Of a stretch of 64,000 bases of DNA, positions 1 through 12,076 are shown piece by piece. The stretch comes from Polynucleobacter arcticus (GTDB lineage: Bacteria > Pseudomonadota > Gammaproteobacteria > Burkholderiales > Burkholderiaceae): contig NZ_CP028940.1 of NCBI RefSeq assembly GCF_013307205.1, forward strand, positions 1,161,702-1,225,701, read 5' to 3'. The notes beneath the pieces are model-generated. The model did not search any database. It had not been told where the DNA came from and saw only the letters and a list, made by a program, of their open reading frames with translations. Made by a program: the position numbers and the translations under genes. Position 1 is the stretch's first letter. The number at the start of each line of letters is the position of its first letter.

Positions 1-272
1 GGGGTTTGCCCACGCGGTGCTAGGGGCAAGGTCATCATATCTCGCTGAATCACTTTGCCAATCTCCAGCAATCCCTGTAAAGCGGGATTAATTTTTCCGA
101 CGGTGCCAAAGTTCACGATGCGTTTGGGCTCAAACTGATGGATAGCCTGAATACTCGCTGCAGTTGCGTTGATCTTGCCAACCCCGGAATACACAATATC
201 GACACCCGCCGGTAATAGGCTTTTATTAAGCTCAGACTCTAATGCGGTAATAATCAGTAAATGTGTTTTCAT
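1..272 (-). CDS. 5'-methylthioadenosine/nucleoside nucleosidase-like protein (partial, N-terminus)
   Basis: The reading frame opens with ATG at 272 and runs off the left edge of the window, so only about 90 residues are present. It begins MKTHLLIITALESEL, then has SGVGKINA and NFGTVGKINPALQG, the pattern of the PNP/UDP phosphorylase fold shared by MTA/SAH nucleosidases, which cleave the N-glycosidic bond to free adenine. The C-terminal half is missing, so the substrate cannot be fixed. It is divergent from apt with only 11 bp between start codons; a shared role in adenine salvage is inferred from that pairing. Confidence 0.7.
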   Translation of the reverse strand, partial: MKTHLLIITALESELNKSLLPAGVDIVYSGVGKINATAASIQAIHQFEPKRIVNFGTVGKINPALQGLLEIGKVIQRDMMTLPLAPRGQT

Positions 273-283
273 ATTAGCCAAAA

Positions 284-802
284 ATGAATTTATTAGATTA
301 TCTACCCGGAGTGCCCGACTTTCCTCGGCCAGGAATCCTATTTAGGGATATCTCCCCTCTTTTAGCCCATCCCGCTGCATTTAAGGAGGCAATTTTGCAG
401 CTTGAGGCTTTAGCCCGAGAGTTTGACTATAGCCATATCCTGGGCATTGAATCCCGTGGATTTATCTTTGGCAGCGCCCTAGCCCACCAAACTCACAAAG
501 GGTTTGCTCTAGCACGCAAACCCAACAAGCTGCCCCTGGCTAGCCATCGCGAATCTTATGGCCTTGAGTACGGCTCTGATTCTCTTGAAATTCAGCAATC
601 TACTCTGCCCCAGGGAGTACGGGTGCTGATAGTGGATGATGTCTTAGCGACCGGTGGAACCATCATTGCAGCTAGCCAATTACTCCAAAAAGCAGGATTT
701 GAAGTAGCTGGTGCTTTAACGTTATTAGAAATTACAGGCCTCAATGGCGGTGCGACCCTAAATCAAAAGGGGATTGCCAATAGGACTGTCTTAGTCGCCT
801 AG
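284..802 (+). CDS. apt: adenine phosphoribosyltransferase
   Basis: A complete 172-residue type I phosphoribosyltransferase that makes AMP from adenine and PRPP in the cytoplasm. The N-terminus carries the Apt signature FPRPGILFRDI (residues 13-23), and the PRPP-binding loop VLIVDDVLATGGT lies at residues 114-126. Length is normal for the family. A stop codon in the same frame at 275-277 means translation cannot begin upstream of ATG 284. The few bases between stop and start have no Shine-Dalgarno sequence, so the message may be leaderless or weakly initiated. The divergent upstream gene encodes a nucleosidase that could supply adenine. Confidence 0.95.
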   Translation: MNLLDYLPGVPDFPRPGILFRDISPLLAHPAAFKEAILQLEALAREFDYSHILGIESRGFIFGSALAHQTHKGFALARKPNKLPLASHRESYGLEYGSDSLEIQQSTLPQGVRVLIVDDVLATGGTIIAASQLLQKAGFEVAGALTLLEITGLNGGATLNQKGIANRTVLVA

Positions 803-811
803 TCCGAGAAC

Positions 812-1093
812 TTACAGCAGGTTTTTAGCGCTTTTGAGTAGCTTCATAGCGCCCCAACCAGTTGCCAACACTTTGCTAGCTAATTTGGGCTTGTAGTGTG
901 CCAACACAGCAAAGACACTAGTCCAGATGACTGGGCTACTCCTCACAAAGTTGAATGCATCAATGCCCTTGTCAGCCCAAAACAAGGGCTTTTCAATAGG
1001 CTCAAAATGTAGTGCAAAATCCGCACGCTCTTGCGCCGCCCGTTCTTGCAAGACTTTTTGCCTTACCTCTAGCTCTGCTAATTTGAGACTCAT
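812..1093 (-). CDS. YqjK-like small protein
   Basis: A 93-residue protein with a charged, Arg/Glu-rich helical N-terminus and a more hydrophobic middle (WTSVFAVLAHY). Its position as the last gene after a DUF883 protein and a holin-fold membrane protein matches the enterobacterial yqjD-yqjE-yqjK cluster, and the sequence is YqjK-like. Start and upstream stop overlap as ATGA (4 bp), indicating translational coupling. Its molecular function is unknown. It ends convergently 10 bp from apt with no visible terminator between them. Confidence 0.6.
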   Translation of the reverse strand: MSLKLAELEVRQKVLQERAAQERADFALHFEPIEKPLFWADKGIDAFNFVRSSPVIWTSVFAVLAHYKPKLASKVLATGWGAMKLLKSAKNLL

Positions 1094-1461
1094 CGGTTTG
1101 CAAGCTCCTGCCGATCTTTAGCCAACTCTGCAATAGTCGCTTCAAACAACTTCGGCATCGTCTTGAGTGAACGCAGCACTATCAAGGCTAGAATGCAGCC
1201 GACCGCTAAGAACCCACTGGTAAGCAGGCCAAGTGCCAGCATGCGATTACTCTCCCAACTGTAGATCACGATGAGCAATGCCAGCATGATTAATCCGAAG
1301 AATAAAAAAAATAAGGTGAAGATGACCATGACCAGCAAGCTAAGGAATTTAGAGCGTGCGATTTGTACATCGATGGAAATTAATTCTAAGCGCGTTTGAG
1401 CAATCGAAGCCCCAGTAGCAACTAAGTTTTTCAGAGAAGACAACAGGTTTTCTTGAGACAT
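1090..1461 (-). CDS. YqjE-like phage-holin-fold inner membrane protein
   Basis: A 123-residue protein with an amphipathic N-terminus followed by two strongly hydrophobic segments, about residues 38-68 and 74-98, and a charged C-terminus. This is the layout of the YqjE / Phage_holin_3_6 family. Despite the family name, these chromosomal proteins are not lysis proteins; their role is unclear and probably linked to the inner membrane. It is the middle gene of the three-gene cluster, 6 bp after the DUF883 gene and overlapping the YqjK-like gene by 4 bp. Confidence 0.7.
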   Translation of the reverse strand: MSQENLLSSLKNLVATGASIAQTRLELISIDVQIARSKFLSLLVMVIFTLFFLFFGLIMLALLIVIYSWESNRMLALGLLTSGFLAVGCILALIVLRSLKTMPKLFEATIAELAKDRQELANR

Positions 1462-1467
1462 AAGTGC

Positions 1468-1803
1468 CTAGCGACGACGGATGAAAAGACCAATAAGCAA
1501 GCCCAATCCGGCAGCTACTCCGACAGCCTCCCAGGGGTTACGGTGTACAAACTCATCAGCGCCCTCTGCAACTACTTTAGCTTTATCAGTCAAGCCACCC
1601 TCTATGGAGGAAAGACTTTCTTTAGCATTATTTAAAGTGTCTAAGGCTTTTGAACGAATCATTCCGAGTGGACCATCCTCATGACTTGCAGTTGCATGAA
1701 TGAGTTCTTCGGCATCTGCCATCAATGCTTTGAAATCAACGATTAATTGCTCGGAATTTAATTTGACTTCTTCATGTGTTGCGGTTGATTTTCTAGCAGT
1801 CAT
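1468..1803 (-). CDS. DUF883 (YqjD/ElaB-like) membrane-anchored protein
   Basis: A helical, acidic protein of 111 residues with one C-terminal membrane segment (GVAAGLGLLIGLFI) and a terminal RRR, the hallmark of DUF883/ElaB/YqjD proteins. In Escherichia coli YqjD the C-terminal anchor places the protein in the inner membrane and the soluble part associates with ribosomes in stationary phase; transfer of that role to this protein is inference. ATG 1803 is preferred over GTG 1809 because AAGGAG lies 5 bases upstream of it. First gene of the three-gene cluster. Confidence 0.8.
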   Translation of the reverse strand: MTARKSTATHEEVKLNSEQLIVDFKALMADAEELIHATASHEDGPLGMIRSKALDTLNNAKESLSSIEGGLTDKAKVVAEGADEFVHRNPWEAVGVAAGLGLLIGLFIRRR

Positions 1804-1868
1804 CACCACTCCTTGGAATTAACGAATAAATTACTTGTTAAGCCCATTCTAAGCAATTCCAAACAAAA

Positions 1869-2309
1869 TTACAGTATTAATACCGTCATACCAGCATTGC
1901 CCTCTTTAAAGTGCTTGAGATGCGCCTTTAAGCCCGGTCTCCTTCTTAATAGAGCGTGATAGGCCTCACTACCAAAGGCAGTCTGCTCACCAAAATGATA
2001 TTCATCCACTCGGTCTGAGAAATAATTGTTTTCCAGAGCATCGTGCACAATCCATTTGATCTTGCCTCCCTCGCCGCTTGCACCATAGCCATGAATGAGG
2101 ATCATCGCCTTAATACCCAATTCCGATGCTCTACGAAGAGCAATGGTGAGTCTATCCAAAGCCTCTTCAGCGCTAGGACTATCGAATTTCAGATTTAACA
2201 CTAAGGTATCGCTGTGCGGCAACGGGAGATCATCGCTGCCACATTGACGACACTCCCCAAGCATTCCCCTAGGATTGCCGCATTCTGGACATTCAAATGA
2301 ATGGGTCAT
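1869..2309 (-). CDS. Smr-domain protein with N-terminal zinc ribbon
   Basis: About 146 residues. The N-terminus has two CxxC pairs (CPEC, then CRQC), a likely zinc ribbon. The rest resembles the Smr (MutS2 C-terminal) domain: a beta strand with LNLKFDSPSAEEAL, then LIHGYGASGEGGKI, the glycine-rich loop of the fold. Stand-alone Smr proteins are nucleic-acid-binding, often endonucleases; activity here is not shown. ATG 2309 fits the upstream AAGGTG better than GTG 2312. Next to it lies the small HTH operon, separated by about 45 bp. Confidence 0.6.
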   Translation of the reverse strand: MTHSFECPECGNPRGMLGECRQCGSDDLPLPHSDTLVLNLKFDSPSAEEALDRLTIALRRASELGIKAMILIHGYGASGEGGKIKWIVHDALENNYFSDRVDEYHFGEQTAFGSEAYHALLRRRPGLKAHLKHFKEGNAGMTVLIL

Positions 2310-2355
2310 CACACACCTTCATAGATGATTGAGCAATAACCCACTCATGAAAATA

Positions 2356-2652
2356 TTAAGAGCAATATTTTGCTTCTAAAGCAGAAGCAGTATTAACCGG
2401 ATCATCAACCATGCGATTTAAGGTCAACTGAGCAGCATCTTTATTCTCTTGCACCTTTAAATTGAGATTAATCAATCCTGCCACATCTTTACGGATCGAG
2501 GTATTGCCATAACGCAAAATCTTTAAAGTCGAAACTGCTTCGGCTGAAATCTTGCATTGCTCATTTACCAATGCAGAGGAGTCTGATGAAGTATTGGCAT
2601 AAGCAAATGCAGCTACAGAGATTGAGGCAATAGCTAAGAAAGTTTTCTTCAT
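2356..2652 (-). CDS. hypothetical exported protein
   Basis: A 98-residue protein with a clear Sec signal peptide (MKKTFLAIASISVAAFAYA, cut after about residue 19). The mature part has two cysteines, one near its start and one three residues from the end, which could form a disulfide in the periplasm. No family recognised. Its ATG follows the stop of the upstream 59-residue gene after a single base (TAA-A-ATG), and its ribosome-binding site AGGAAA lies inside that gene, so the two are very probably co-transcribed and translationally coupled. Confidence 0.7.
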   Translation of the reverse strand: MKKTFLAIASISVAAFAYANTSSDSSALVNEQCKISAEAVSTLKILRYGNTSIRKDVAGLINLNLKVQENKDAAQLTLNRMVDDPVNTASALEAKYCS

Positions 2653-2653
2653 T

Positions 2654-2833
2654 TTATTTCCTTATTTTGTGACCACATGTTGGACAACAACCTAAATCAC
2701 TTGCTCTTGTTTTTCTAAGGGCGGCATAGACGCTAGATTCGGAAATTTCCATCTTTCTGGCGGCTTGAGCTGCAGTCATCCCCTTCCCTATCCAATCTAA
2801 TGCTTGATGTGTTTTTGGTATTGCTTTTCTCAT
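2654..2833 (-). CDS. 59-residue helix-turn-helix / zinc-knuckle protein
   Basis: A small gene too short for a 60-residue ORF cut-off. It starts MRKAIPKTHQALDW, continues with a helix-turn-helix-like stretch (MTAAQAARKMEISESSVYAA, residues 19-38) resembling resolvase or Trp-repressor-type HTHs, and ends CCPTCGHKIRK, a candidate zinc knuckle. The start is marked by a near-perfect Shine-Dalgarno AGGAGGTG at 2836-2843. A plausible sigma-70 promoter and an iterated operator-like sequence sit directly upstream. It forms an operon with the exported protein gene. It may be an autoregulatory DNA-binding protein (inference). Confidence 0.72.
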   Translation of the reverse strand: MRKAIPKTHQALDWIGKGMTAAQAARKMEISESSVYAALRKTRASDLGCCPTCGHKIRK

Positions 2834-2851
2834 TTCACCTCCTATTTAATT

Positions 2852-2881
2852 ACTATACCACAAAAGTTGTGAAGTTGTGAA
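2852..2881 (-). promoter_or_regulatory. candidate sigma-70 promoter of the small HTH operon
   Basis: On the minus strand a TTCACA -35 element (2876-2881) and a TATAGT -10 element (2852-2857) are separated by 18 bp. They would start transcription near 2845, giving a leader of about 12 bases that contains only the Shine-Dalgarno. The -35 hexamer is part of a tandem 8-bp repeat, so a protein bound to the repeat would block this promoter. Confidence 0.45.
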
Positions 2882-2892
2882 GTTGTGAAGTT
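2859..2892. repeat. tandem 8-bp repeat plus palindrome over the HTH-operon promoter
   Basis: GTTGTGAA is repeated exactly three times at 2866-2889, with a further GTT to 2892. The first copy also forms one arm of an interrupted palindrome, CACAA-AAG-TTGTG, at 2859-2871. The 8-bp period, the symmetry and the overlap with the -35/spacer region suggest an operator, possibly for the small HTH protein encoded just downstream. Confidence 0.65.
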
Positions 2893-3093
2893 TAGTAATA
2901 AATATTTAAGGGGTTTTGATACCGGTAAAAATCAATGAGTTGAGTTGGTAGAACTAAAAATTGCTGCCGCTGAAATAGGCCTACCTGGGCTAAAGGTATT
3001 GCATGTAGATAGTGATTGAGGCAATAAAAAAGCCCCGGTGAAGGGGCTTAGTTATATGTCGTATTGGATCAAGCAGTTAAATCACAAGGATTT
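2893..3093. other. intergenic stretch left of the islet
   Basis: No convincing gene. A short plus-strand open stretch from about 2910 to a stop near 3019 could encode some 35 residues of ordinary composition but has no good start or ribosome-binding site; it may be a gene remnant. The only clear element is the minus-strand terminator at 3030-3049. Confidence 0.5.
3030..3049 (-). terminator. intrinsic terminator, minus strand; possible original terminator of tRNA-Ser
   Basis: AAGCCCC (3030-3036) pairs with GGGGCTT (3043-3049) across a six-base loop, and read on the minus strand it is followed by a T-run. No gene lies immediately upstream on that strand. If the 3094-5283 segment were removed, this hairpin would sit about 44 bases after the 3' end of tRNA-Ser, so it looks like the displaced native terminator of that tRNA. 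Confidence 0.65.
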
Positions 3094-3111
3094 TGGCGGA
3101 GACGAGAGGAT
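3094..3111 (-). repeat. 18-bp duplicate of tRNA-Ser 3' end (candidate distal att site)
   Basis: These 18 bases (TGGCGGAGACGAGAGGAT on the plus strand) are identical to 5284-5301 in the same orientation. The identity starts exactly at the A of the encoded CCA end and covers the 3' acceptor strand and part of the T arm. This is the usual form of the attachment core left by tyrosine-recombinase elements that insert into tRNA 3' ends. The rest of the tRNA is absent here. Confidence 0.75.
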
Positions 3112-3146
3112 CACAAACCCCATACTGGGTATGAGTTTGAAGACCA

Positions 3147-3165
3147 ATATACCGAACGATATACC
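3147..3165. repeat. left pair of ATATACC motifs
   Basis: ATATACC occurs at 3147-3153 and 3159-3165, a 12-bp spacing. The 12-mer CAATATACCGAA at 3145-3156 recurs exactly at 5153-5164 near the other end of the islet. An 8-bp inverted repeat CTGGGTAT/ATACCCAG (3125-3132 and 3161-3168) brackets the pair. Possible recombinase arm-binding sites (inference). Confidence 0.55.
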
Positions 3166-3337
3166 CAGATTTTGCTGTTTCCTATGTAATCTAAAAATAG
3201 CCTATTTCCGATGGCAATTAATAGTTTTTTGGCTATCTTAGCCATGCTCTACGTCTGCTATGGGAAGGTTGCGGCCTTATTTTGAATTAGGTATCAGACT
3301 CTAATCGACCCTAAGGAGACGCCTGTAGACAACAAAA

Positions 3338-3355
3338 AACCCGCCGAAGCGGGTT
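3338..3355 (-). terminator. intrinsic terminator of the autotransporter-like gene
   Basis: AACCCGC (3338-3344) pairs with GCGGGTT (3349-3355) around a CGAA loop; on the minus strand the hairpin is followed by a T-run. It lies about 26 bases after the stop codon of the gene at 3382-4824. Confidence 0.85.
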
Positions 3356-3381
3356 GATTGCCTGAATTCAAATGAACCTCT

Positions 3382-4824
3382 TTAGAAACCCACTGTATAT
3401 GTTGCCATCACAGTAGTTGTTGCTGCAGCTTGATAAGCCTCTTGACGATAAATGCCGGTCACTCCAACACGCTGGTTCTTCTCAACATCATAGCTAGCAC
3501 CTAACATTGCTGTTGGACGTGTTCTTACTGGATTGGAATTAAAGTTCACTGGAGTTAAACCAGTTACACCAGTAGCTGAGTAAGAGCCATTAGCAGTATT
3601 AGTATCTGTTTCTACACCAGCGCTAGCAAACAAATTGGTTTGCGGGATGCCTCTGTAGTTAACGCCAACACCAGCTAAAGCAGTTGTAGCATTTGTGTTC
3701 AATGCTGAGTAAGTCAGCGGTGCTGTTACTGTAGAAGATGATCCTTCGGTATAGCCACCCATATTGTTCTGGGTGTAACGGATGCCAACGTATGGGGAAA
3801 CTACTACTTGATCAACAAAACCAAAGCCATACTTAGCAGTTACCTGTGCGCCTTGACTGTTGAGTTGTGAGCCGCCTGAACCTGCTTCAGAGGCAGTAGC
3901 ACCAGCGCCGACTACAGAGCGATTAATGGTGGTGTTCTTTTGACCGTATGCTGCTGATACCTTTACTTCTGTACCAGTACCATCTAAGCGCTCATTCCAT
4001 ACACCGAATAAACCGAGTAATGGGGTGTTATTACCCAAGTTCACAGTAGAGCCAGCATTACTAACGGATACATTCTGATCGGCATAAGCACCAATACGAA
4101 CAGATGGTAGAGCGCGGTAAGCAGCAATTAACAGAGCGCTAGAGTTATTCAAACCATTAGCTGCTGATACAGCGGTATTACGACCACCAGCAGATATGCA
4201 AATATTGTTCGCGCCAAATACAGAGCAGTCATAGCTAAAGCTATTGGCTAGTACCGCATTTTGTAGTGTGTAAGTGCCTTGTAAAGCCTGGGCTGTGTTC
4301 GCTACTGAGGCTTGGGTATTGGCGAGGGATGGGCCTGTTGGAGTTGGAGTTGGAGCTGGTCCAGAGCCGGTATAGACCAATAAATTTGAAATGTAATACT
4401 GGGTTGCGGGAGCGCTAATAGCTCCAGAACCAGTTAATGCCAAACTAACAGCATTACCACTTAGCACGAAAGACCCGCTGTAATTTGCGGATGATGTAGT
4501 TAATAGATGGATAGCTCTACCCACATTTGACCCATTGAGAGTTGTTGTTGGATAGGCATTTAGACCAAGATTAGGTGCAGCCCCTCCTGAACCCGGATTC
4601 ACCACATAACCAGTGTATGAATAGGAAATTGTTTCACCACTTACAAGAGAATAACTAGTGCCAAGCGCAAAGCCAGCCCCCGGGACTGAAGCCGGTCCAG
4701 CACGGAATCCTTGAGTAGGATCCCCGTTAAATAATATCGTCTGAGAATTTGCATTAATAGAAACAAGACTTCCAGCAACCAAGGCTGAAGCAAAAGCGAT
4801 TTTTTTGATATTAAGTGATTTCAT
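3382..4824 (-). CDS. autotransporter-like outer membrane beta-barrel protein
   Basis: 480 residues: a signal peptide (about 1-27, ending INANSQ), a Ser/Gly/Thr-rich passenger of about 125 residues, a Pro/Thr linker (PAPTPTPTGP, near 156-165), then about 300 residues of alternating strands ending in aromatic Phe480 (VMATYTVGF), as in autotransporter barrels and other BAM substrates. Two cysteines at 200 and 209 lie just inside the barrel domain. It would sit in the outer membrane and display a short passenger or self-fold as a barrel. It is the only gene in the tRNA-Ser islet and ends with its own terminator. The ligand is unknown. Confidence 0.7.
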   Translation of the reverse strand: MKSLNIKKIAFASALVAGSLVSINANSQTILFNGDPTQGFRAGPASVPGAGFALGTSYSLVSGETISYSYTGYVVNPGSGGAAPNLGLNAYPTTTLNGSNVGRAIHLLTTSSANYSGSFVLSGNAVSLALTGSGAISAPATQYYISNLLVYTGSGPAPTPTPTGPSLANTQASVANTAQALQGTYTLQNAVLANSFSYDCSVFGANNICISAGGRNTAVSAANGLNNSSALLIAAYRALPSVRIGAYADQNVSVSNAGSTVNLGNNTPLLGLFGVWNERLDGTGTEVKVSAAYGQKNTTINRSVVGAGATASEAGSGGSQLNSQGAQVTAKYGFGFVDQVVVSPYVGIRYTQNNMGGYTEGSSSTVTAPLTYSALNTNATTALAGVGVNYRGIPQTNLFASAGVETDTNTANGSYSATGVTGLTPVNFNSNPVRTRPTAMLGASYDVEKNQRVGVTGIYRQEAYQAAATTTVMATYTVGF

Positions 4825-5116
4825 AATTCTTTAGGGGTATGTTGTGTAAATTAGCTTTAGAGCTAATTTTTAGCAAATCGAATTATACGGAATGACTAGA
4901 CCGTCACCACGGTTTCTATAAGTAAATCACTTAAATACAACAACCATGGGCTTGATTGACCTCAGTGGCACCTAGTGGCCGTTCTGAGACAGTGACTTAC
5001 TTACAGTGCTATGTCCGCTTATACGCAAATAAGAGCCTTGGGCATCAGGCCACAATCCCAAAAAATGCAATGCACTTAACTGTTCATAAATTTCAGCACG
5101 AAACGATGTTAAAAAA
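4825..5116. other. intergenic stretch upstream of the autotransporter-like gene
   Basis: About 290 bases without a supportable gene. The part next to the gene start must hold its promoter on the minus strand, but no clear -35/-10 pair stands out. The plus-strand open frame from 4956 has no ribosome-binding site, and its repetitive C-terminal part simply translates the ATATACC repeats. Confidence 0.5.
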
Positions 5117-5161
5117 ATATACCATCCGATATACCATCCGATATACCAAAGGCAATATACC
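5117..5161. repeat. right array of ATATACC motifs (12-bp period)
   Basis: ATATACCATCCG is repeated exactly at 5117-5128 and 5129-5140; further ATATACC copies follow at 5141-5147 and 5155-5161. The last copy is embedded in CAATATACCGAA, which is identical to the left array at 3145-3156. All copies have the same orientation. Iterated short sites near both ends of a tRNA-bounded segment resemble integrase or excisionase arm sites; that reading is inference. Confidence 0.65.
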
Positions 5162-5220
5162 GAAGAGCTATAGTTTCAGCGCTCTATTTTTTATAAGTCA
5201 TTGATTTAAATGAATAAAAA

Positions 5221-5241
5221 AACCCGCTATGGAAGCGGGTT
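5221..5241 (-). terminator. intrinsic terminator downstream of tRNA-Ser
   Basis: AACCCGCT (5221-5228) pairs with AGCGGGTT (5234-5241) around a five-base loop, with A-rich sequence on the left that gives a T-run on the minus strand. It lies about 43 bases after the mature 3' end of tRNA-Ser and inside the islet, so it would have taken over termination from the hairpin at 3030-3049. Confidence 0.8.
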
Positions 5242-5283
5242 TTAATAAAAAAATTCCTTTAAAATCAATGGTATACAAGCAGG

Positions 5284-5378
5284 TGGCGGAGACGAGAGGA
5301 TTCGAACCTCCGATCAGAGTTTTAGCCCCGATGCTCCCTTAGCAGGGGAGTGCCTTCGACCAGCTCGGCCACGTCTCC
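5284..5378 (-). tRNA. tRNA-Ser (anticodon GCU)
   Basis: 95 bases including an encoded CCA. The acceptor strands GGAGACG (5372-5378) and CGTCTCC pair fully, the anticodon loop contains CTGCTAA giving anticodon GCU, there is a long class II variable arm, and the T-loop is GGTTCGAATCC. It reads AGC/AGU codons. The last 18 bases are duplicated at 3094-3111, making this tRNA the likely insertion site of an islet. Confidence 0.96.
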
Positions 5379-5467
5379 CTGCTTGATACCTTTACAACGC
5401 CCACAGTTTAACGGATTCCGTTGACTGCGGGGTTTTACTACGGTTTTAAAGCGTTTACTGCGTATTT

Positions 5468-6718
5468 TTACTTCTGATCTAGCTCAAAAGCCTTATGGAG
5501 CGCACGTACAGCCAACTCCATATATTTTTCATCGATCACAACAGAAATCTTGATTTCACTCGTGGAGATCATCAGAATATTGATGCCCTCTTCAGATAAA
5601 GTGCGGAACATTTTGCTTGCCACACCAACATGGGAGCGCATACCAACACCCACTACAGAGACCTTGGAAACCTTTGGATCACCAGTAATTTCTTTAGCCT
5701 CAATATGGGCCTGGACATTACTCTTAAGCAAATCTAAGGCTTTTTGATAGTCAGCACGCGGTACGGTGAAGGTAAAGTCAGTCTTACCTTCAAAGGATTG
5801 GTTCTGAATAATGATGTCTACATCAATGTTGGCGTCGGCAATCGGACCCAAAATTTGATAAGCGATTCCCGGGCGGTCAGGAACTCCCAGAACGGTAATT
5901 TTTGCTTCATCACGCGCAAAGGCGATGCCGGAAATAACTGCGGCTTCCATAGTGCTGTCCTCTTCAAATGTAATCAAGGTACCCGACTTCATCTCCAGAT
6001 CAAGGGGCATCAACGGATCTGTCAATGATGACAGAACACGGGTTTTCACTTTGTACTTCCCAGCAAACTCGACGGAGCGAATTTGCAATACCTTAGAACC
6101 CAGACTTGCCATCTCTAGCATTTCTTCAAAAGTAATCTTGTCTAGGCGACGCGCATCTTCGCAAACACGGGGATCGGTTGTATAAACACCATCAACGTCC
6201 GTATAAATCAAACACTCGTCCGCCTTGAGGGCAGCGGCCATTGCAACAGCCGAGGTATCAGAGCCGCCACGACCTAAGGTCGTGATATTGCCATTCGGAT
6301 CGACACCTTGAAATCCAGTAACGACCACAGCACGGCCAGCATTGAGATCAGCCAGAATTTTTTGATCGTCAATACTTTTGATGCGCGCTTTAGTAAAAGA
6401 AGAGTCTGTATGTACGGTAACCTGCCAACCTGCATAGCTGACAGCATCAACACCTTCACGAAGCAAAGCCAAAGCCAATAGGCCGGAGCTCACCTGCTCA
6501 CCGGTCGAAGCAATTTGATCTAGCTCACGCGGGTTAGCGTCGGGATTGATATCTTTTGCCAAGCCAAGCAAGCGATTGGTCTCACCTGACATGGCAGAAG
6601 GCACCACTACAACCTGGTGACCTGCACGCATCCACTTGGCAACGCGTTTAGCGACATTCTGAATGCGCTCAACTGAGCCCATTGAGGTGCCACCATACTT
6701 ATGAACGATAAGAGCCAT
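5468..6718 (-). CDS. lysC: aspartate kinase
   Basis: 416 residues, the length of monofunctional aspartokinases in this group. The N-terminus MALIVHKYGGTSMGSVERI holds the KYGGTS kinase motif; TTLGRGGSDTSA is the catalytic-domain nucleotide/substrate motif; the C-terminal about 160 residues are tandem ACT domains (ITVLGVPDRPG and VSVVGVGMRSHVG) that bind feedback inhibitors, normally lysine and threonine. It makes aspartyl phosphate, the first step to lysine, threonine, methionine and diaminopimelate; dapA is also in this window. It stands alone between tRNA-Ser and tilS, so its regulation seems to be mainly allosteric. Confidence 0.97.
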   Translation of the reverse strand: MALIVHKYGGTSMGSVERIQNVAKRVAKWMRAGHQVVVVPSAMSGETNRLLGLAKDINPDANPRELDQIASTGEQVSSGLLALALLREGVDAVSYAGWQVTVHTDSSFTKARIKSIDDQKILADLNAGRAVVVTGFQGVDPNGNITTLGRGGSDTSAVAMAAALKADECLIYTDVDGVYTTDPRVCEDARRLDKITFEEMLEMASLGSKVLQIRSVEFAGKYKVKTRVLSSLTDPLMPLDLEMKSGTLITFEEDSTMEAAVISGIAFARDEAKITVLGVPDRPGIAYQILGPIADANIDVDIIIQNQSFEGKTDFTFTVPRADYQKALDLLKSNVQAHIEAKEITGDPKVSKVSVVGVGMRSHVGVASKMFRTLSEEGINILMISTSEIKISVVIDEKYMELAVRALHKAFELDQK

Positions 6719-6802
6719 AAAAGCCGTTGTTTTATCTATTTATAGGGAACTGCATTCCCTAGGGTCTAAAAGGGGCTTATTTTACAGGGTTTTATCCCTT
6801 TG

Positions 6803-8122
6803 CTATGGCTTGACAATCCACTCAGGAATAACTCGCTTACCAGTTGACGTTAAATGAGGATAGCTTACCCCAACCCCAGCCACCGCAATAAGCTCATCGT
6901 TGATATACAACAGAGGTGCCTGCCGCTCCCAAGGTGGTGTACCTGACTCCTGAAAGAGATTCTTAAGTGTTTTGCGGGGTGTATTGAGCTTGATTTGAAT
7001 CTTTTCTGCACCTTGGCGCAATCTTTCCTCGATAAGACCCTGCTCTTGGGCTCTGTGTACCCAGGTCAGCGATAAACCTAGCGCCTTACTGCGTAGCGGC
7101 AAGCTCTTAAATATCCACTGACCAGCATTGCTGTTGGCTACCTGCAAGATACTGCGCCATAAATAAATACTCACCCCATCATGCTGCCATTCCAAGCTAG
7201 AGTCCGGCTTTACCGACATGAGATCTTTCCACCAGGATTCGAGTCGATCTTGAGATGGCATTCCTAAATTATTTAACTTCAACCAATAACGCATGAGATT
7301 ATTGGCAGCTGCTTTATCTGCCTGAGCTAGGGCAAGCAGGGGCGACAGCTTTAAGTTATCGCCCTGAAGAATATTTTTCGCATCCTGTCGAGCCAAACGA
7401 TCGAGCAGCACTTGGGACTGAGCCAGTAAATCTGCACTTCGAGCTAAATTGGAGATGGCTCCAGGCTGAATTTTTTCCAATCTCGGAATAATTACCTTGC
7501 GCAAAGCATTGCGGCGATAGCGTGTATTTTGATTGCTAGGGTCTTCTACCCACTTTAGCCGATGCTCCTTAGCGTATGCCTCTAACTCTGCTTTACTGTT
7601 ATTTAACAATGGGCGCCAAAGCGTAATTGAGTGACCCTCTTTTGACATAGAGCGACCGAGGGGCATACCGGAAAGGCCAGCCACTCCGGAGCCACGCAAC
7701 AGTTGCAAAAGAATCGTTTCAGCTTGGTCATTTTGATGATGCGCTAGTAGCAAATCTTCAACCTCATGCTCCCTGCATAAATCGATCAAAGCATCGTAGC
7801 GCTCTGCTCTTGCTCTAGCCTCAATATTGCCTTGAGATTGATCGGCAAAATGCAGTAGGCGAAAATCAAAATGGACGTGATATTTTTTGGCTAGTTTCTC
7901 GCAAAACTCCAACCATTGATCAGCCGGCTTTTGTAATCCATGATGGATATGAAAAACCCAAACTTCAATTGAAGGATCTTGAAGATTGCTTGCTTGCACC
8001 CCTTTACAAACAGTATCGAGCAGCACAACCGAATCTAGCCCACCGCTGAGGGCGAGGCCAATTTTTCTAGCCGCTACTGGAGCAGCTTTAAGGCTTGGCT
8101 TCGATTTCCTTAAACTTGCCAT
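6803..8122 (-). CDS. tilS: tRNA(Ile)-lysidine synthase
   Basis: 439 residues. The PP-loop [14 protein letters not shown] near residue 25 binds ATP, and [27 protein letters not shown] and [13 protein letters not shown] are TilS motifs; a C-terminal substrate-binding domain follows. The enzyme adds lysine to C34 of tRNA-Ile(CAU) so that it reads AUA; it is normally essential. The start overlaps the 3' end of accA by 35 bp, suggesting co-transcription with that gene. Confidence 0.95.
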
Positions 8123-9059
8123 AACTCATCAAACGCTCATGGCGACGCTCAAGTAGCGCATCCACTTTCATGCCATCGAAGGTCTTCAGGGATTCAGCCA
8201 AAGCTTTGCGCATATTAGTCATCATGACATCGTAGTCACGGTGAGCACCACCAGTTGGCTCGGCTACGATTTTGTCGATCAGACCTAATGTTTTCAAACG
8301 TTGTGCAGTCAGCCCCAGTTGCTCGGCAGCTTCAGGCGCCTTCTCTGCTGTCTTCCAAAGAATCGAAGCGCAGCCTTCAGGCGAAATCACGGAGTAGGTA
8401 GAGTTCTGCAACATCAGCACCACATCACCCATAGCAATAGCCAATGCACCGCCAGATCCACCCTCACCAATAATAGTGGCGATGATAGGCACTTCTAACT
8501 CTGCCTGAACATAGAGATTGCGGCCAATCGCTTCAGATTGATTGCGCTCCTCGGCATCGATACCTGGAAATGCCCCTGGTGTATCTACAAAAGTAAACAC
8601 GGGTAATTTAAATTTCTCTGCCAAACGCATTAAGCGCATAGCCTTGCGATATCCCTCAGGACGACTCATGCCAAAGTTTCTTAGAGCGCGCTCTTTGGTA
8701 TCCCGCCCTTTTTGGTGACCGATCACCATACAAGGCTGATTCTCAAAACGCGCCAAACCTGCAATGATGGATTGATCATCTGCAAAATTGCGATCGCCAT
8801 GAAGTTCATGAAAATCAGTAAACAAGGCGCCCACGTAATCTAATGTGTAGGGACGCTGCGGATGACGCGCTACTTGTGAAACTTGCCAAGGACTGAGGTT
8901 GGCATATACATCTTTAGTCAGCTGCTGACTTTTTTCAGTCAGCGTTTTGATCTCATCAGAAATATCTACCGATGATTCGTCTTGCACAAATTGCAGCTCT
9001 TCAATCTTTGACTCTAGTTCAGCGATCGATTGCTCAAAATCCAGGAAAGTCGTTTTCAT
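8088..9059 (-). CDS. accA: acetyl-CoA carboxylase carboxyltransferase subunit alpha
   Basis: 323 residues, the usual AccA length. The N-terminus [20 protein letters not shown] is typical, followed by the crotonase-fold core with [32 protein letters not shown] and [13 protein letters not shown], the last being the glycine-rich oxyanion region. With AccD (not in the window) it transfers CO2 from carboxybiotin to acetyl-CoA, the first committed step of fatty acid synthesis. It lies 9 bp after the DNA glycosylase gene and overlaps tilS, so the three may be one transcript. Confidence 0.97.
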
Positions 9060-9068
9060 AGCTCGATT

Positions 9069-9725
9069 TTAGTATTCAACGGGAACGGGGTCGATACTTC
9101 TCCACATATACCAGGTGGCTACCGTTCGCCAGGGGGCCCAATTTGCTGCTACTTCACGAGCCTCATGCCTACTAACCGGCTCTCCACTGAAGTAATTGAG
9201 TGAAATAGCCTTAATGAGGCCCACATCGTCCAAAGGGAGAATATCCGGCCTCACCATGTTAAAAATCAGGAACATTTCTGCCGTCCAGCGGCCAATTCCC
9301 CGAATAGCACTCAATTCTTTAATAATGGCCTCGTCCTCCATGCCTTTCCACTGATTAGCATGTAAGCGGCCAGAATCAAAATGCTCGGCCAAATCTCGAA
9401 TGTATTCAACCTTTCGACCCGATAAACCCGCTGCACGCAACTCTTCTACAGTAAGGGCAAGAATATTTTTGGGGCTGACTTTCTTTTTAAGGGCCAAGAG
9501 GACTTTGTTCCAGACGGATTGGGCTGCAGCTACGGAGATCTGTTGACCGACAATCGATCTCGCTAAAGTAGTGAATGCATCACCGCGGGTCATCAAAAAG
9601 AGAGAGTCGTATTTAGGGATGATTTTCTTCAGAATACGATCCTGTTTCATAAGCTCAGTACAAGCCCGCTCCCAATACTCGGGGGCTACTTCCTCATGAA
9701 TTAACTGCTCTGCTGCTTTACTCAA
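9069..9725 (-). CDS. DNA-3-methyladenine glycosylase II family protein (HhH-GPD)
   Basis: 218 residues. ARSIVGQQISVAAAQSVW and the helix-hairpin-helix LSAIRGIGRWTAEMFLIF, followed by DILPLDDVGL containing the expected catalytic Asp, define the HhH-GPD superfamily, AlkA branch. No iron-sulfur cysteine cluster is present, which argues against Nth/MutY. It would remove alkylated bases in base excision repair. It lacks the N-terminal domain of Escherichia coli AlkA, as in many compact bacterial homologues. Confidence 0.88.
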   Translation of the reverse strand: MSKAAEQLIHEEVAPEYWERACTELMKQDRILKKIIPKYDSLFLMTRGDAFTTLARSIVGQQISVAAAQSVWNKVLLALKKKVSPKNILALTVEELRAAGLSGRKVEYIRDLAEHFDSGRLHANQWKGMEDEAIIKELSAIRGIGRWTAEMFLIFNMVRPDILPLDDVGLIKAISLNYFSGEPVSRHEAREVAANWAPWRTVATWYMWRSIDPVPVEY

Positions 9726-9769
9726 GATACATTCTCAATCACTCAATATCTAAACACTATTTTTTAGAT

Positions 9770-11191
9770 TTAACTTCTACGCCACTCGGTGATTCCACCG
9801 GGCTTGTCTTCCAATACTACGCCCTGCTCTATTAATTCTCGACGAATCAGATCAGCTTTCGCAAAGTCTTTAGCTAGCTTAGCTGAAACCCGTGCTGCAA
9901 TCTGCTCTTCAATTTGATCAGCGGATAAACCTTCAACGCTACCACGCGACCCTGCTTGTAAAAAGTGGGTTGGATCACGCTGTAAAAAGTTGAAGGTGCC
10001 GGCCAATTGTTTTAAGGTGGCCGCCAATTGCGCTTTTTCTTCACCCTGTGCACGATTAACCTCACTTGCTAAATCAAATAATGTAGCAATTGCCTCAGGC
10101 GTATTGAAGTCATCATTCATGGCGTCTGTAAAACGCTTGGCCCAGACTGCGTGGGGGTCAATCGGCTGATTGCTCGCGGGTACTTGTGCCAGCGCTGTAT
10201 AGAGACGAACTAATCCAGCGCGAGCTTCTTCGAGCTGTGCATCACTATAGTTAATGGGACTGCGATAGTGGGCACGCAACATAAAGAAGCGTAATACCTC
10301 TGGATCAAAACTCTTGAGAACATCTCGAATCAAAAAGAAGTTACCAAGTGACTTGGACATCTTTTCTTCATTCACCCGAATGTGGCCGTTATGCATCCAA
10401 TAATTAACGAAAGGTGCATCGCTCGCTTTGTGGTCTTGGCCATACAAGGCGCCTTCGCTTTGTGCAATCTCATTCTCGTGGTGAGGAAACTGTAAATCCG
10501 CACCGCCGCCATGAATATCAAAATGCTCACCCAATAAGTCACAGGACATTGCTGAACATTCAATATGCCAGCCAGGGCGGCCATCGCCCCAAGGAGATTT
10601 CCATCGAGTATCTGCTGGCTCTTCTGGTTTAGCGCTTTTCCACAATACAAAATCAAGGGGGTCACGTTTACCGCCGCCAACTGCAACGCGCTCACCAGCA
10701 TTGAGTTCGTCTAAGGATTTTCCTGAAAGATGGCCATATCCCGGAAACAATCGCACGGCAAAATTCACGTCAGCATCTTCACCCTGATAAGCCAGTTCCT
10801 TGTCGACTAAACGACCAATGATTCCTTGCATTTGTGCAATGTAATCCGTAGCACGGGGCTCATGATCGGGATGGATCAATCCCAGTTCATCCGAGTCAAA
10901 ATGCATAGCATCAATAAAACGCTGAGTCAGAGCAGAAATGGGCTCACCATTCTCCACAGCGCGATTGATGATCTTGTCGTCAATATCCGTGATGTTACGG
11001 ACATACACCACTTCATAGCCGCTAGCTCGTAACCAACGAACCACCATATCAAAGACAATCATGACCCTAGCATGCCCAATATGGCAGAAGTCATAGACCG
11101 TCATCCCGCAGACATACATCTTCACCTTACCCGGCTCGATGGGTTTAAAGGCCTGTTTTGAACGACTGAGGGTGTTATAGATTTGCAGCAT
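9770..11191 (-). CDS. cysS: cysteinyl-tRNA synthetase
   Basis: 473 residues from ATG 11191; an upstream in-frame TTG at 11212 would add seven residues but the family starts ML(K/Q)I(F/Y)NTL, matching [10 protein letters not shown] here. The HIGH motif is CHIGHARV, the zinc-binding Cys is in YVCGMTVYD with [10 protein letters not shown] and [12 protein letters not shown] further on, and [10 protein letters not shown] is the KMSKS loop. It charges tRNA-Cys. It is divergent from the TPR lipoprotein gene. Confidence 0.97.
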
Positions 11192-11251
11192 AGGGGCGAT
11201 AAAGGTGGGCAAGTAGCGCCAATTTGTTAGACTGAGCGCTGAGTATATCGA

Positions 11252-12076
11252 ATGAGCCAGTTTTCCACCCTGCCCCCTATGCCTGCTAAGCCCTTTTTTT
11301 GTCGTCCAGCCCTTGTGGGCGGTTTGAGCTCCCTAGCAACCCTTCTGATTCTGGGTGGGTGCAGCACACCAGGCCAACAGTTAGCGGATGCTGAAATCCG
11401 AGCTCTTAATAGCGCTCCTGCCAGCCCCTCAACAGGCCCTCAAGCACCCTATTTGGGCTCTTATGGCCCCAATGACCCACCAAGACTCGCAGGCAATGAC
11501 GCGGGATATGACCAATTCAATGCAGAGCTATCAGATTCTGTGGCAGTGCCCTTTTTATCATTTTTGATTATTGAGCCCGACCCAGTAACTCGAAATGGCG
11601 TCCCGTCCGATATTGAAAAGCTTGTAAAAGCCAAGAAATATCCGGATGCGATCGACCTGATCAATCAAAACCTAAAGAAAACTCCCGGTAACGTGCAGTT
11701 ACGTTACGTCAAAGCGCGCATGCAAATTGAAATGCGTCAATGGGAGCCAGCCAAAAAGACCTTGATCGAAATCACTCAGCAATTTCCAGAATTACCAGAG
11801 CCCTATAACAACTTAGCAGCCCTAGCAGCCAACCAAGGCAATTGGATTGAAGCAAGAGATTATTTAGAACTTGCATTGAAATTGCGTCCTAGCTACACAG
11901 TAGCTTCGGCAAATTTGGGCGAAGTCTACATTCGCTTGGGCGCCCAAGCTTATGACAATGCCGCCAAAGATGCTGTGCTTAATCAACGCCAATACACCAA
12001 TCGTGCCAAAGCATTGATGGAAATACTCAAGCCCACAAAAAAATCTGTCCCACCGACTCCAGCTATCTCAAAATAA
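11252..12076 (+). CDS. TPR-repeat lipoprotein
   Basis: 274 residues. A hydrophobic segment ending [11 protein letters not shown] is a lipobox with Cys at about residue 36, so the mature protein would be lipid-anchored in the cell envelope. Residues about 125-240 contain tetratricopeptide-type helices ([57 protein letters not shown]). ATG 11279 is an alternative start giving a more typical signal peptide length. It comes before ppiB by 46 bp. TPRs imply a protein-interaction role; the partner is unknown. Confidence 0.8.

Follow-up and report, generated by a model that had tools for sequence, protein, structure and literature searches.

A 2.19-kb segment abutting the 3' end of a tRNA-Ser(GCU) gene of Polynucleobacter arcticus is probably a non-autonomous, integrase-less integrative islet that was placed by a tyrosine integrase, with paired repeats inside both of its ends acting as binding sites for this enzyme. 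The segment lies in a 64-kb stretch of DNA (the window, whose numbering is used throughout), and the genome examined comprises 2,090,447 bases in a single contig. Positions 3094-3111 and 5284-5301 carry the same 18 bp in the same orientation, with a start-to-start spacing of 2190 bp, and the repeat starts at the CCA end of the tRNA. Just these two copies were detected in the window at ≤3 mismatches (mean of 0.05 across 100 shuffles) and in the entire genome at ≤2 mismatches. An earlier note on this DNA, prepared from the sequence alone, had described an exact 18-bp copy of the tRNA-Ser 3' end beginning at its CCA end, and string and genome searches together with ARAGORN confirmed this description. 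Hereafter, the core of the islet is TGGCGGAGACGAGA and its arm pair pattern is GGTATAT-N5-GGTATAT. The segment and its borders contain the following features.

3030..3049, minus strand: hairpin immediately outside the distal core (pattern match); in most aligned empty-site relatives, it aligns close to the tRNA
3071..3093, no strand: ancestral tRNA 3' flank AAGCAGTTAAATCACAAGGATTT, now beyond the distal core; identical and adjoining the tRNA in 8 of 117 relatives' loci
3094..3111, plus strand: distal attachment (att) core copy TGGCGGAGACGAGAGGAT, an exact repeat of the tRNA-Ser(GCU) 3' end
3112..5283, no strand: islet body between the cores, 2172 bp long, or 2190 bp when one core is counted; removal of this stretch yields, base by base, the empty site seen in relatives
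3147..3165, minus strand: left arm-type pair, ATATACC (GGTATAT on the minus strand) at 3147-3153 and 3159-3165, with a 12-bp period; function proposed from the layout
3338..3355, minus strand: terminator-like hairpin 3' of the autotransporter gene (pattern match only)
3382..4824, minus strand: cargo gene for a 480-aa autotransporter, with a signal at about residues 1-27, a passenger at about 28-160, and a barrel at about 161-480
5117..5161, minus strand: right arm-type set, ATATACC at 5117-5123, 5129-5135, and 5141-5147 (12-bp period) and at 5155-5161 (14 bp on); function proposed from the layout
5219..5243, minus strand: terminator-like hairpin between the right arms and the core (pattern match only)
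5284..5301, plus strand: tRNA-side att core copy, an exact repeat formed by the last 18 bases of tRNA-Ser(GCU)
5284..5378, minus strand: tRNA-Ser(GCU), the intact target gene (ARAGORN; Rfam RF00005, 56.4 bits)

Relatives of P. arcticus retain the uninterrupted site. The 18-mer was searched for in 186 genus genomes and was matched in 162; 120 loci from 119 genomes were compared, of which 7 have <2.3 kb on the island side and 3 stop at the tRNA itself, and the flank comparison covers the 117 loci with a flank of at least 23 bp. In eight of these, the tRNA adjoins exactly the 23-bp ancestral flank, and a ninth locus does so with one mismatch. Four of the eight (L024, L085, L099, and L105) are fully empty, with the next chromosomal gene 408 to 412 bp from the tRNA; the same distance is 2631 bp in the window and 441 bp after subtraction of 2190 bp. 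When the window flanks are joined and compared with the empty loci, the junction aligns base exactly; i.e., the tRNA end of relatives lacking the segment runs straight into base 3093, as the earlier note had expected. None of the 120 relatives' loci carries the autotransporter gene. The segment is a real, exact, lineage-restricted insertion, and the base-exact empty sites support the proposal, also made in the earlier note, that it entered the tRNA 3' end by site-specific insertion. At the short loci L022 and L051, the flanks have diverged; the tRNA-Ser(GCU) of L022 (genome G002) has two 3'-end changes, and its 5' acceptor arm has a change that matches one of them. Beyond the distal end of the islet, window positions 2864-2892 hold three tandem 8-bp repeats (AAGTTGTG), with one unit fewer in the aligned empty-site relatives, and the minus strand at about 2670-2840 is well conserved across six aligned relatives and is possibly a short unlisted gene.

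The islet contains one convincing gene, which encodes the autotransporter; the sole other open reading frame (ORF) of at least 80 aa (82 aa, TTG start) spans 4956-5204. No integrase remnant was detected by tblastn with 18 integrase queries (i.e., 7 own-genome recombinases plus integrase-like ORFs), the best match (E value of 0.06) falling within the autotransporter gene, and no second gene fragment was recognized inside the islet. The ORF list and these searches bear out the earlier reading of the interval as holding one complete gene and no recombinase. Among the features expected of a tRNA island, the segment possesses a far-end repeat, an empty site in relatives, and arm repeats at both ends (judged by layout), and it lacks an integrase of its own. 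A plasmid search gave 43 matches, and every one of the 20 listed lies over the tRNA.

The paired ATATACC repeats at both ends escaped the earlier note and emerged in the present analysis. Of the nine ATATACC copies on the two strands of the window, six lie in the arm sets at the islet ends. A 7-mer pair common to both ends at a spacing of 11 to 13 bp was found in 0 of 5,000 end shuffles and at 0 of 1,129 other window placements, and at ≤1 mismatch the arm pair pattern occurs nowhere in the genome except in the islet. Similar pairs of other sequences lie upstream of three integrases of the same genome (L135, L138, and L139), all of which have an Arm-DNA-bind_3 domain. Pairs of 7-mers at 11 to 12 bp were present near the tRNA end at 19 of 120 loci (here including the window and up to three loci at other tRNAs), compared with 9 of 581 control stretches, and an arm pair common to both ends was present in 8 of 13 att-bounded islands of relatives at tRNA-Ser(GCU). 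From this layout, we infer that the ATATACC repeats are arm-type integrase sites, and the islet looks like a whole attP that lacks an integrase. The GGTATAT motif of the window is directed away from the tRNA, opposite to most other loci. Its sense is shared by the pair at L018, where the integrase lies on the minus strand and adjoins the tRNA; the expected place of any former integrase of the islet is therefore beside the tRNA.

We propose that an Arm-DNA-bind_3 (P4-like) tyrosine integrase, encoded elsewhere or once by the element itself, acted on the islet. The enzyme would have catalyzed recombination between the 18-bp attP core and the tRNA-Ser(GCU) 3' end, inserting 2.19 kb, restoring the tRNA, and leaving the old tRNA end at 3094-3111; the ATATACC pairs inside both ends would be its arm-binding sites. 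The hairpin at 3030..3049 is presumably the original tRNA terminator, now shifted 2.2 kb away, and that at 5219..5243 would now end the tRNA-Ser transcript. What remains would be core, arms, terminators, and a single cargo gene for an outer-membrane autotransporter predicted to display a small passenger. An incoming integrase could in principle excise the islet and move it, provided that the enzyme had the same specificity for core and arms.

Other islands at the same tRNA are informative about such movement. A second copy of the 14-base core was exact at 12 of the 120 relatives' loci and had one mismatch at one more; at ≤2 mismatches, it was found at 17 of 120 relatives' loci versus 3 loci in an opposite-strand control (121 loci, window included). 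Relatives in which copies of the tRNA end enclose other cargo, as the earlier note had predicted, were thus found. In the 70 relatives in which the next conserved gene was found, its distance from the tRNA was <800 bp in 6, 800 to 2500 bp in 29, 2500 to 6000 bp in 7, and >6000 bp in 28. Among the 13 att-bounded islands, L013, L014, L016, L030, and L097 contain an integrase-like ORF of at least 400 aa, L015 and L023 contain integrase pieces, and L036, L055, L075, L089, L098, and L103 contain none or a stub.

Nitrate/cyanate islands occupy tRNA-Ser(GCU) at L055, L075, L089, L098, and L103 (15.6 to 16.7 kb), and their integrase position was checked for a stub. In L055, L075, and L089 (genomes G046, G074, and G089), the island is 16.7 kb long; the two cores are present, with one mismatch in L055, as are the two arm pairs (TGGTAAGC). 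Pfam searches with 10 proteins of this 16.7-kb island identified cyanate lyase, NMT1-type binding proteins, HPP membrane proteins, nitroreductase, and others, with no integrase among the 10; further ORFs encode putative nitrate and nitrite reductases. The integrase position is occupied by a 33-codon stub (E values of 3.5e-5 in L055, 0.001 in L075 and L089, and 0.009 in L103; no match at an E value of 0.01 in L098), and a single stub junction is shared in the DNA alignment of the nitrate islands. Between L075 and L089, identity is 99.3% across 14,998 bp of island and 89.7% across 1,403 bp of aligned tRNA-side flank. In 500-bp bins, their identity is 94 to 100% in the island and falls off within 100 to 200 bp of the tRNA end; past the distal core, they differ, as judged on 131 bp of L089, and both resemble the ends of related islets. 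The same lean of island versus flank was observed for L075/L098 (96.3 versus 90.6%) and L098/L103 (96.0 versus 91.4%). Of these islands, the L075/L089 pair looks recently transferred between species; because the stub junction is shared, the loss of the integrase would have preceded this transfer.

Genomes G075, G098, G062, and G004 contain intact integrase frames of 442 to 455 aa, which have 70 to 87% identity to the N-terminal L023 integrase piece. The core lies directly upstream of all four, and the exact 7-mer arm pair is also present in G075 and G004; the G075 integrase shares core and arms with the nitrate-island ends. In G075, G062, and G004, the enzyme is encoded 51, 26, and 62 kb, respectively, from tRNA-Ser(GCU), on its 3' side. 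Site-specific transfer in trans of the integrase-less nitrate island is the simplest reading of these data; alternatively, homologous recombination within the tRNA may have acted at one end. Enzyme-less units thus seem to move between species. Two further regions with att-like structures were recorded. Beyond the nitrate island of G074, a segment of about 9 kb (L247; G074:C1:926400-938000) has a proximal GGTAAC arm pair, with no integrase match and no third core copy at ≤3 mismatches. Downstream of a tRNA-Phe (L184; G182:C17:120500-140000, positions 1-8717), four further att-like units were found, each in a longer conserved context: 22-bp exact units at 2668 and 8375 bp, one with one mismatch at 7075 bp, and a diverged one at 1330 bp. 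They separate small cassettes with putative toxin-antitoxin-like ORFs, no integrase-like ORF was detected in the region, and the whole looks like a cassette array.

Several results weigh against an islet mobilized by an arm-recognizing integrase. The islet is carried by one genome only, and integrase loss after arrival is therefore indistinguishable from arrival without an integrase. No integrase with ATATACC/GGTATAT arms was found, and the arms of the resident integrases differ. The exact arm pair is present in 5 of the 186 genus genomes; the other four (G047, G065, G069, and G140) have one match each, with no tRNA or integrase-like ORF within about 1.5 kb on either side, which is about what chance could give. 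The core-plus-arms pattern had 0 matches in GTDB contigs, a collection without the window's own genome. Five of the 13 att-bounded islands (L014, L016, L036, L098, and L103) fail the shared-arm test, and two of them, L014 and L016, have full-length integrase ORFs; the arm layout is therefore not universal. Finally, the L055/L075 pair is about as similar in the flank as in the island (94.0% in the island versus 93.9% in the flank). Since no arm-matched integrase was found, the islet looks stranded in this strain. The suggestion in the earlier note of a non-autonomous mobilizable cassette holds in part: it gains indirect support from the retention of both attP-like arm sets and from the related integrase-less island at the same site that looks transferred att to att, and it is weakened by the lack of an arm-matched integrase in the same genome and of a helper in the outside searches.

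The sole match to arms plus TGGCGGA, viral contig L205, was taken as chance; it is GC rich and lacks a tRNA and a convincing integrase match. At tRNA-Ser(TGA), the P. arcticus genome itself carries an island of about 4.95 kb that encodes an integrase (L194; G000:C1:848000-862500, positions 6327-11364), with core repeat TGGCGGAAGAGGTG and paired arms TGAGGGAA; a further pair, GGTGGGTA, lies just outside it and is perhaps a tandem islet.

The alternative that survives best, which we consider somewhat unlikely, is that the segment is a dead relic: a larger integrase-bearing island (e.g., a P4-like satellite) would have undergone an internal deletion that left one cargo gene, with att sites and arms persisting for want of time. 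Integrase pieces or stubs in L015, L023, L050, L055, L075, L089, and L103 show that such deletion occurs, the closest named full-island relative of the autotransporter carries an integrase and a D5-type primase, and no helper for the islet was found. However, the islet holds neither an integrase remnant nor a recognized second gene fragment, both arm sets are complete, both cores are intact, and the transfer of integrase-less units at this site seems to have followed integrase loss, as the shared stub junction indicates. A much less probable alternative is that homologous recombination via the shared tRNA and flank imported the segment along with its 18-bp repeat, as in a replacement island. 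The flanks of replacement islands are described as recombination hotspots in other Polynucleobacter islands (PMC5644125), but this model covers later spread and leaves unexplained how an exact duplicate of the tRNA end arose and how the ancestral flank came to lie intact beyond it, and the identity drop between L075 and L089 starts within about 100 to 200 bp of the tRNA end. The view that the repeat is fortuitous and the autotransporter gene next to it an ordinary one of vertical descent, for which only the absence of an integrase speaks, has practically no standing given the two-copy repeat and paired arms and is refuted by the empty sites and by the missing gene at the 120 relatives' loci.

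The cargo protein matches the Pfam family Autotransporter (PF03797; E value of 1.4e-11; 45.1 bits, cut-off of 26) and, with a C-terminal beta-domain and an N-terminal passenger, is organized like a type Va autotransporter. NCBIfam has no family for it, a PDB sequence search with the autotransporter profile gave no match, and no autotransporter was confirmed in viral contigs. Homologues occur in 67 of the 186 genus genomes, that of the window among them; each of the 67 has one to six matches, some of which are pieces of one gene. Homologues also occur at 41 GTDB loci, almost all from Polynucleobacter or betaproteobacterial metagenome-assembled genomes (MAGs) and one from a Limnohabitans MAG. 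Relative to 119 homologues (left after removal of the query from the best 120 of 1137), the barrel has a median identity of 83% and the passenger one of 27%; for a single homologue, the figures are 93% and 17%, respectively. The first invariant column in a 33-sequence alignment is residue 164. The structure model is of low confidence overall (predicted local distance difference test score [pLDDT] of 59.6), with residues 31-130 modeled well. Foldseek matched the barrel of this low-confidence model to the autotransporters AaaA, EstA, and NalP and gave weaker matches (E values of about 1e-3) to family 4 carbohydrate-binding modules (CBM4); the passenger possibly adopts a CBM4-like, carbohydrate-binding jelly roll. 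A tRNA lies within flanks of up to 6 kb at 11 of the 41 GTDB loci; only the position of the gene, on the 3' side of the tRNA in 10 of the 11, is suggestive. The closest named full-island relative is in P. sphagniphilus MWH-Weng1-1 (genome G182, locus L174), where an 8.77-kb island at tRNA-Ser(TGA) has an att repeat, arms at both ends, an integrase, a D5-type primase, and a homologous autotransporter (barrel identity of 86%). The notion of a cassette that swaps surface proteins, raised in the earlier note, is thus favored by the conserved barrel and hypervariable passenger and by the occurrence of the family at another tRNA-Ser, in a satellite-like island; however, autotransporters were not seen to replace one another between these 18-bp ends, and the other islands there carry other cargo.

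More broadly, and tentatively, Polynucleobacter may host integrase-less "attP cassettes," reduced to a core, arm pairs, and cargo (a single surface protein in the islet, a nitrate/cyanate cluster in other cases), which the arm-matched integrases of other elements would carry from species to species, with enzyme and cargo evolving as separate partners, as do clusters of attC sites lacking integron integrases (CALINs) and the integron integrases. Many integrase-less genomic islands are filed as dead, but this islet keeps an apparently full attP, and a neighbor of the same kind, the nitrate/cyanate island, looks transferred between species after enzyme loss. Arm sequences offer a means of pairing orphan islands with integrases that could move them, and trans-mobilization thereby becomes testable in this freshwater genus. 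The hypervariable, possibly carbohydrate-binding passenger on the cargo barrel would tie such movement to cell-surface change.

Among known systems, tycheposons are reported as elements with a tyrosine recombinase at a tRNA and cargo, at 4 to 200 kb (size as cited in PMC10872708); the islet has no recombinase and spans 2.19 kb. The integrase and primase/replication module that characterize P4-like phage satellites are likewise missing from the islet and present in L174. This satellite-type island resembles the islet in its homologous autotransporter, att repeat, and paired arms at both ends, and it differs in its integrase and D5-type primase, its size of 8.77 kb, its tRNA-Ser(TGA) target, and its arm sequence TTGGTAAC. 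CALINs and miniature inverted-repeat transposable elements (MITEs) are termed hitchers in PMC11389934; like the islet, they are non-autonomous units recognized by an enzyme encoded elsewhere, whereas their recombination sites and enzymes are different (attC sites and transposon ends were covered here by repeat searches only). The ssrA islands of Dehalococcoides, as PMC3146451 describes them, occur in tandem, are flanked by direct repeats, and lack an integration module in 15 cases, with mobilization together with neighbors suggested. The direct repeats and the missing module are shared with the islet, which differs in its tyrosine-integrase layout, tRNA-Ser target, and arms at both ends, as opposed to serine recombinases and transfer-messenger RNA (tmRNA). 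Additive flexible genomic islands of "Candidatus Methylopumilus" at tRNA-Lys, in which the last 20 bp of the tRNA recurs, range from 330 bp to 42 kb with 1 to 63 coding sequences, according to PMC10872708. They share with the islet the recurring tRNA-end copies, a very variable size, and an origin in freshwater relatives, in another genus and at another tRNA.

The nearest counterpart is the cis-mobilizable element (CIME), which PMC5704250 defines as lacking integration and transfer genes while keeping attL and attR. CIMEs are presented there as decayed integrative and conjugative elements (ICEs) or integrative and mobilizable elements (IMEs), often in tandem with a helper. The islet differs in being alone at its site, with 2.19 kb and one gene; no ICE or IME trace was seen inside it, and no parental element was found in the genus-genome and GTDB searches. 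It has neither integration nor transfer genes and retains both attL and attR, and, ICE/IME ancestry excepted, it fits the definition and can be described as CIME-like.

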